A stretch of 64,000 nt of DNA. Origin: Sedimenticola sp. (GTDB lineage: Bacteria; Pseudomonadota; Gammaproteobacteria; Chromatiales; Chromatiaceae). Position numbers and translations under genes: made by a program. Position 1 is the first letter of the stretch. The number at the start of each line of letters is the position of its first letter. Location: the NCBI GenBank assembly GCA_011051655.1, contig DRKS01000058.1, forward strand, positions 1-64,000. The letters run 5' to 3'. Positions 55,030 to 55,811 of this stretch are shown piece after piece. The notes beneath the pieces were generated by a model, which was given only the letters and a program-made list of their open reading frames with translations, had not been told where the DNA came from and searched no databases.

Positions 55030-55178
55030 GGGTTGTAGGTTGAGTCTGGGTTGAATTGACTTGGGGCGTTTCGCGCATGCTTTTGCGGGGGACAGGTCCC
55101 TGTGGCCCGGGCCCGGCCTCGGCCCCCTGGCGAGGCGTTTGCCCGGCTTCCTTGATCCGCTGGACCAGGGAACCGGCC

Positions 55179-55382
55179 TCACCCCCCCCCGATTGCGTGC
55201 ACGATCTCCACTTTGTCCCGGGGTTTCAAATAGTATTCGGAAAAGGCGCTGCGCGGCACCAGCTCATCATTTACTTCCACGGCGATGCGCCTGCCGGAAA
55301 GCCCCAGAAGTTCGACCAGGGAAGTCATGCTGGTGTCGTCGGGGATCTGCCGCTCCTCGCCATTGAGATAGATCTGGATCAT
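55179..55382 (-). CDS. thiS: Sulfur carrier protein ThiS
   Basis: Ubiquitin-fold sulfur carrier, 67 residues from ATG 55382 ([16 protein letters not shown]), ending [10 protein letters not shown] with the C-terminal Gly-Gly needed for thiocarboxylation. A 149-bp gap separates it from thiG. A -10-like TAAAAT lies about 30 bases before the start; no thiamine riboswitch fold was recognised there. Confidence 0.92.
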
Positions 55383-55544
55383 GGAGTTTTGCTGGGTTAC
55401 CGTTGAGGAGGCGGATTTTACACCAATCCGGCACCTTCGGTCACAGCCCCCCATGTCCGCGCCGGCCTGCGGATGCCGCCCCGTCGGAATAGTAGTAGCA
55501 GTCCGTTGCCACCGGTTGTAGAATTACAGAGTCACCATGGACGC

Positions 55545-55595
55545 GCGGGTGTAGTTCAATGGTAGAACCTCAGCTTCCCAAGCTGATGACGTGGG
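55545..55595 (+). pseudogene. Truncated tRNA-Gly(CCC) copy (5' 51 nt)
   Basis: Identical to the first 51 nt of the intact tRNA-Gly at 55738 (acceptor 5' strand, D-arm, anticodon arm with CCC, 5' strand of the T-stem). It then diverges at the T-loop and runs into 142 bp of unrelated, hairpin-rich sequence. It cannot fold as a full tRNA. Confidence 0.88.
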
Positions 55596-55599
55596 GTGA

Positions 55600-55639
55600 G
55601 CCGCGACCGTTTTGACCCAACGTCAAAACGCAGCGCGGC
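55600..55639 (+). other. Long hairpin inside the tRNA duplication
   Basis: GCCGCG (55600-55605) and CGTTTTGAC (55608-55616) pair with GTCAAAACG (55622-55630) and CGCGGC (55634-55639), loop CCAAC. A second stem (GCCAG/CTGGC) follows at about 55650-55668. Located directly after the truncated tRNA copy. Confidence 0.65.
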
Positions 55640-55737
55640 GAACGCCGAGCCAGGAAGGCGAGGCTGGCATGTGGTTACAGGGAGGTATTCAGTCCACCAG
55701 CCGGCACTTTGAACAGGTAGGTTGTGTTGAAATCCAA

Positions 55738-55811
55738 GCGGGTGTAGTTCAATGGTAGAACCTCAGCTTCCCAAGCTGATGACGTGGGTTCGATTCCCAT
55801 CACCCGCTCCA
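55738..55811 (+). tRNA. tRNA-Gly(CCC)
   Basis: 74 nt including encoded CCA. Acceptor stem GCGGGTG/CACCCGC, discriminator T, D-arm GTTC/GAAC, anticodon stem TCAGC/GCTGA with loop TTCCCAA (anticodon CCC, reading GGG), T-loop TTCGATT. All stems are intact, so this copy should be functional. A 51-nt truncated copy lies 193 bp upstream. Confidence 0.95.

Follow-up and report, generated by a model that had tools for sequence, protein, structure and literature searches.

Why is an intact tRNA gene preceded by a truncated copy of itself? In the window (the whole 64,000-nt stretch of DNA analysed here) the tRNA-Gly(CCC) gene follows a copy of its own 5′ part, and an insert of 142 bp separates the two. 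The sequence-only reading had offered three possibilities: the scar of an unusual integration, a tandem duplication with insertion, or a source of tRNA-half-like RNA. The features that bear on the question are listed below.

55545..55595, + strand: partial copy of tRNA-Gly(CCC), nt 1-51, ending in GTGGG; identical to 55738-55788
55596..55643, + strand: 5′ domain of the element, P1 (GTGAG, a stem with a nested hairpin, CGAAC); predicted fold, covarying helices 1-4
55644..55664, + strand: element hairpin P2, GCCGAGCCAGGAAGGCGAGGC, with AGGA in the loop; GGA invariant in a 7-sequence alignment, P2 loop conservation being partly ascertained by the model; covariation
55676..55687, + strand: element hairpin P3, TACAGGGAGGTA, CsrA-SELEX-like by sequence; P3-type ANGGA hairpins are enriched family-wide
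55690..55737, + strand: spacer or leader 5′ of the intact tRNA, by sequence; unalignable with the DNA upstream of the partial copy
55738..55811, + strand: intact tRNA-Gly(CCC); ARAGORN, Rfam RF00005 at 72.9 bits
55094..55183, − strand: second copy of the element in the window; R1 match (E 1.7e-11), sequence and reading frame

Comparison of 55545-55595 with 55738-55788 gave 51 identical nucleotides out of 51, with no mismatches and a start-to-start distance of 193. The partial copy begins at tRNA nucleotide 1 and stops with the 5′ strand of the T-stem, GTGGG; the very next base differs, GTGAG following the partial copy and TTCGA following in the intact tRNA. The break seen in the earlier reading is exact. 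ARAGORN calls a single tRNA gene here (55738-55811), and the partial copy alone scores 32.8 bits with the Rfam tRNA model. The 142-bp insert is hairpin-forming, with a predicted fold of -53.1 kcal/mol that by itself is just mildly unusual (z = -1.98). The stem-loops reported in it earlier are present at the places given and have strong covariation support across relatives.

A dispersed family of elements

A whole-genome search with the locus (3.1 Mb in 103 contigs, 95.8% complete) found the insert again at tRNA-Gly(TCC), once more 3′ of a copy of nt 1-51 of the gene. At tRNA-Glu(CTC) an antisense element lies between two perfect 107-bp repeats containing the tRNA, another copy comes after a homoserine-dehydrogenase-like ORF, and still others lie elsewhere. 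A covariance model made from six copies (R1) matched 13 places in this genome. Among them are tRNA-Glu, the second window copy and each of the tRNA-Gly isoacceptor genes, CCC, TCC and GCC, the last with three tandem units upstream. The search for the insert outside its locus, which had been proposed as a check, thus yielded further copies both here and in many relatives: R1 matched at least once in 54 of 274 sampled genomes of the class and, at a stricter threshold, in 8 of 299 genomes of a phylum-wide sample. The window element is 87% identical to the Gly(TCC) copy and 83% to that of a relative, G009, so descent of the window and G009 copies from one ancestral insertion is no more than possible. 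We conclude that the insert is no one-off scar, as an integrating element might have left, but one copy of a widespread and apparently undescribed structured repeat found in many tRNA genes.

Three relatives from other genera share the synteny of the tRNA-Gly(CCC) locus with an AsmA-like gene. Comparison of the relatives, also suggested earlier, found a single tRNA at this locus in G002 and G003, with neither partial copy nor element, and both of these in G009. The orthologous empty sites mean insertion and not loss, and the proposed duplication with insertion at the unusual 5′ end is correct. In G009 the 51 tRNA nucleotides are identical between the copies, both of which hold all four G009-specific differences, and the upstream flanks are about 70% alike over 30 nt. 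More generally, the repeat outruns the tRNA in young-looking copies (L050, 94 of 94 nt; L006, 107 nt), and many others combine an identical tRNA part with flanks no more alike than expected by chance. Partial copy and tRNA agree at 778 of 798 positions for sense insertions and at 190 of 192 for antisense ones. Either the fragment is kept like its gene by gene conversion or selection, or some duplications begin at the mature tRNA end.

The perfect 107-bp duplication at tRNA-Glu(CTC) (L006 1356-1662, contig C49 of the same genome) yields a second tRNA-Glu(CTC) with a 5′ end changed by the element; this copy may be partly functional. In another genome, G077, the element occurs inside a repeat that is present in high copy number and has inverted ends such as CAGGCTGTTGAAAAAC (L035, L065-L074). 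This set was not counted as mobility of the element itself, because the element rides inside another repeat. Comparison of the G077 copies also revealed one element nested in another, inside a hairpin loop that contains GG (GGCGGCAAGG/ATGCCGCC, the slash marking the junction).

Target sites and the insertion junction

Target preference was analyzed in a non-redundant set of 88 copies less than 85% alike. A G precedes the model in 81 of them and, where a direct repeat is present, its left copy terminates in GG(G), with the element next. A tRNA gene lies within 330 bp of 43 copies, against a chance expectation of about 0.6% (our own estimate from 45 tRNAs in 3 Mb). A flanking direct repeat is also found in 43, and repeat and tRNA occur together in 33; about 40% of the set have neither and represent old or non-tRNA sites. 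Both orientations are seen at tRNA genes. Inside the tRNA, insertions lie, among other places, after G19 of the D-loop, before T54 of the T-stem, in the T-stem on the opposite strand, and in the anticodon and variable arms.

Since a model-based search could bias the apparent target preference, genome_contigs (about 85,000 species) was also scanned with a 20-mer, GTAGCTCAGYTGGGTGAGSC, consisting of a tRNA D-arm plus GGTGAG. There were 52 matches. In 45 of these an intact tRNA follows after 94-338 nt, with 18 or 19 of its first 19 nt equal to the partial copy; the remaining seven lie near contig ends. Nearly all carriers are Gammaproteobacteria, and among the carriers are the isolates Gilvimarinus, Microbulbifer, Marinimicrobium, Thiohalobacter thiocyanaticus and Aestuariibacter salexigens. 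The sole viral match of an 18-mer was to an ordinary tRNA with a D-arm that fits by chance, and viral spread was rejected.

D-loop insertions copy about 19 nt of the tRNA and antisense insertions its 3′ 16 nt; a tRNA half is therefore not the usual product. The expectation that integration copies the 3′ end of a tRNA holds for tyrosine-integrase islands and for E. coli tRNA-linked repeats; for the family of this structured element it does not.

Sites away from tRNA genes were assessed with the 27 copies that have neither tRNA nor repeat and start with GTGAG or GTAAG. At least 100 open codons end in frame at the stop codon of the element in 78% of them, compared with 33% and 7% in the remaining two frames. 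According to their translations, the genes ended in this way include nusG, xerD, rimK and thiS. By ending the gene with its stop codon, the element comes to form the 3′ UTR; this pattern can arise through selection against insertions that disrupt genes. The second copy in the window (55094-55183, − strand) is of this kind, its TGA being the stop of a thiS-like ORF that is followed by a thiG-like ORF. The thiS-like ORF (55179-55454, − strand) finishes in a long G run and receives its stop codon from the element.

Conserved fold and GGA-loop hairpins

The element measures about 90-130 bp and has the architecture GG/GTGAG-P1-CGAAC-P2-(P3), the slash marking the junction, in which P1 holds a nested hairpin and P3 is often present. 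In an alignment of 144 matches all 21 of the 21 modelled pairs have changes on both sides, and 93.3% of cells are paired compared with 68% after shuffling and at most 47% with the partner slid; fitting of the alignment to the model biases the absolute values upward, but the contrast is very large. Two known structures were considered for the conserved motifs and rejected. A group II intron reading of GUGAG lacks the other domains, a hammerhead-like reading of GUGAG..CGAAC lacks CUGA, and neither has an Rfam match.

Hairpins with ANGGA loops are the binding signature of CsrA/RsmA, and the CsrA SELEX consensus is RUACARGGAUGU. At least one such hairpin is present in 82% of the non-redundant copies as against 24% of dinucleotide-shuffled sequences, and at least two in 36% as against 2.8%. 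The GGA loops are strand-specific and enriched even past the model end: in the region around and after it (P3) an ANGGA hairpin occurs in 49% of copies and 10% of shuffled sequences, and the reverse motif in 2%. The 3′ hairpin of the element, CTACAGGGATGTA, resembles the SELEX consensus. Weighed with the contrary observations that follow, these data give about an even chance that the element serves as a CsrA/RsmA decoy.

Genomes with CsrA are not enriched among element carriers (about 46 of 54 versus 86% overall in our own tally), a comparison that is uninformative because CsrA is nearly universal. The genome analysed here encodes CsrA, but G088, which is 99% complete and has five matches with GGA loops, contains no credible csrA. 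GGA loops are also absent from a sub-family that retains the core (Gilvimarinus, Microbulbifer and Thiohalobacter, among others). It is found at tRNA-Arg with CCGGACCCGAGCGNAGCGAGGGGAGTA (L157, L164, L166, L173, L191, L195, L202 and L205), and a model built from it, R2, recognises many GGA-type copies.

Some elements are located near csrA itself (G045:C167, G021:C104, G255:C10, and G029:C1 near 2768000). Some of these sit by a tRNA-Ser or tRNA-Arg gene adjoining csrA, and RtT repeats are found near csrA in other genomes. Feedback through such elements is possible, if they bind CsrA.

Interpretation and related systems

The reading that best combines these data is a structured RNA element that inserts after GG, prefers tRNA genes, duplicates its target and most likely acts as a CsrA/RsmA decoy. 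We assign it a probability of about 0.6, higher than that of the decoy role alone, because the existence of the family and the insertion parts are nearly certain. The family, its fold, the target preference, the junction, the duplication, the empty sites at orthologous loci and the strand-specific GGA loops are observed; transcription, CsrA binding and the insertion enzyme and mechanism are inferred. According to this model, a small element of about 90-130 bp would enter either strand after a GG dinucleotide, with preference for tRNA genes, and would come to be flanked by direct repeats of the target sequence as far as that GG. When the insertion is in sense, the repeat would take in the tRNA from its 5′ end, leaving the 51-nt fragment as the upstream copy; with the 5′ end spanned, the downstream copy would be the whole gene and the host would retain its tRNA. 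At protein genes the TGA of the element would become the stop codon and the element the 3′ UTR. Given these locations, at tRNA genes and gene 3′ ends, co-transcription with the tRNA or mRNA is expected, and the ANGGA-loop hairpins would then act as a CsrA/RsmA decoy site, as experiments have shown for three tRNA-linked repeats of E. coli. With the 5′ junction fixed precisely after GG and the opposite end of the repeat variable, the insertion could be a staggered one, perhaps target-primed, or could come from template switching. No mobilising enzyme was found, and the genome, 95.8% complete, lacks the Y1 transposase PF01797.

A purely selfish MITE-like element is the strongest competitor, although we consider it unlikely. 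Here tRNA genes and gene ends would simply be harmless sites, and the hairpins would serve transposition through folding of single-stranded DNA, with no role as RNA. The target-site-like duplication, the tandem arrays and the nested insertion in the GG-containing hairpin of another element would all be expected, and the lack of CsrA enrichment in carriers and the sub-family without GGA loops agree with it. However, a role in DNA only does not predict GGA over TCC, and the GGA loops are strand-specific and enriched beyond the model; the elements are also sense to the gene they terminate and provide its stop codon.

Less probable still is local tandem duplication by slippage or template switching, the element being a fold-back hotspot moved by copy-choice replication with no dedicated enzyme. 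Repeat lengths from 15 to more than 100 bp, tandem units near 146 bp, the hairpin-rich DNA and the failure to find an enzyme would all suit such a process. What counts against it is the exact 5′ end of the element after GG in unrelated genomes together with the strong tRNA preference, which indicate specific recognition.

A scar left by an integrative island of the tyrosine-recombinase type, its attP resembling the tRNA 5′ part, would explain an insert flanked by a direct repeat of part of a tRNA, but is very improbable. The same element of 90-130 bp recurs without an integrase, for which that length leaves no room, and without a fixed att core; it occupies many positions inside tRNAs (D-loop, T-stem, anticodon, variable arm) and stop codons, and its repeats take in locus-specific flank, such as the 107 bp at tRNA-Glu. 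An assembly artefact, conceivable in a draft of 103 contigs and named earlier as a possible refutation, is the least probable of all, since the arrangement recurs in other genera, in isolate genomes and in single-contig genomes.

The closest known system is that of the E. coli tRNA-linked repeats, or RtT RNA (Rfam RF00391), reportedly the subject of work by Egan and Landy in 1978 and Rudd in 1999. They too are short structured elements by tRNA genes, often tandem, with part of the tRNA directly repeated at their flank, and they start with GG/RTGAG (slash, junction) as the element does. The trait of a tRNA-gene location with a flanking partial tRNA copy is thus common to both, and RtT repeats adjoin tRNA genes in many class members. 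They differ in that tRNA-linked repeats duplicate the final 18-19 bp of the tRNA or 5S gene upstream of them, whereas the element copies the 5′ part in sense and the 3′ 16 nt only when antisense. RF00391 gave no match to the element at the gathering threshold or at E≤5, though it detected a genuine RtT in the same locus, and R1 and R2 gave none against E. coli tyrT and 14 other RtT loci (best E 0.11, on the wrong strand). Our best reading is a 5′-type tRNA-linked repeat that works like a repeat of the RtT family, to which these models gave no match in either direction. Three E. coli tRNA-linked repeats (RrA, RrB and RrF) bind CsrA via GGA motifs in vitro and in vivo (PMC8144298). The literature found on tRNA-linked repeats comprised that paper and an editorial mentioning it; an earlier account of a 5′ type may exist in subscription papers, e.g. 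Rudd 1999.

The decoy RNAs CsrB, CsrC, RsmY and RsmZ have ANGGA-loop hairpins as the element does, and P3 is like the CsrA SELEX consensus; unlike them, the element has only two or three sites, is dispersed and multicopy, has no evident locus or promoter of its own, and has no Rfam match. REP/BIME sequences with RAYT transposases are likewise short, dispersed and palindromic, with a similar conserved 5′ tetranucleotide-plus-hairpin look. In contrast to them the element has a long flanking duplication and targets tRNA genes, and with Y1_Tnp absent from this genome RAYT/REP mobilisation was rejected. The tRNA attachment sites of integrative elements share restoration of the target gene by the duplicated part; the element differs in having no integrase, in the copied part lying 5′ to an internal GG and in its many positions within tRNAs.

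To our knowledge, the tRNA-linked repeats of E. coli, known since 1978, have had no explanation of their origin. The present family occurs in about one fifth of the sampled gammaproteobacterial species in the mirror arrangement, and its precise junction, clear target preference and empty sites make origin and function testable. Annotation pipelines leave such copies as pseudo-tRNAs or blank. Insertion into a tRNA operon would wire a global regulator to growth rate, provided that CsrA binds the GGA hairpins. A bolder proposal, to which we give little credence, is a class of mobile regulatory RNA in which CsrA decoys spread by dedicated GG-specific, tRNA-seeking, long-duplication insertion, possibly RNA-templated, with the E. 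coli tRNA-linked repeats as its 3′ branch; each insertion would then be an added sponge whose dose tracks tRNA and ribosome output, with the target gene spared.

The genome analysed here also contains an RtT/tRNA-linked repeat, located 3′ of tRNA-Tyr on contig C12 (L002 1201-1475), where a direct repeat is exact over 64 bp and reaches about 90 bp if mismatches are allowed. The tRNA-linked repeat at L002 1265-1399 lies directly upstream of the tRNA-Gly(TCC) element, and both polarities are therefore present in one tRNA-tuf operon.
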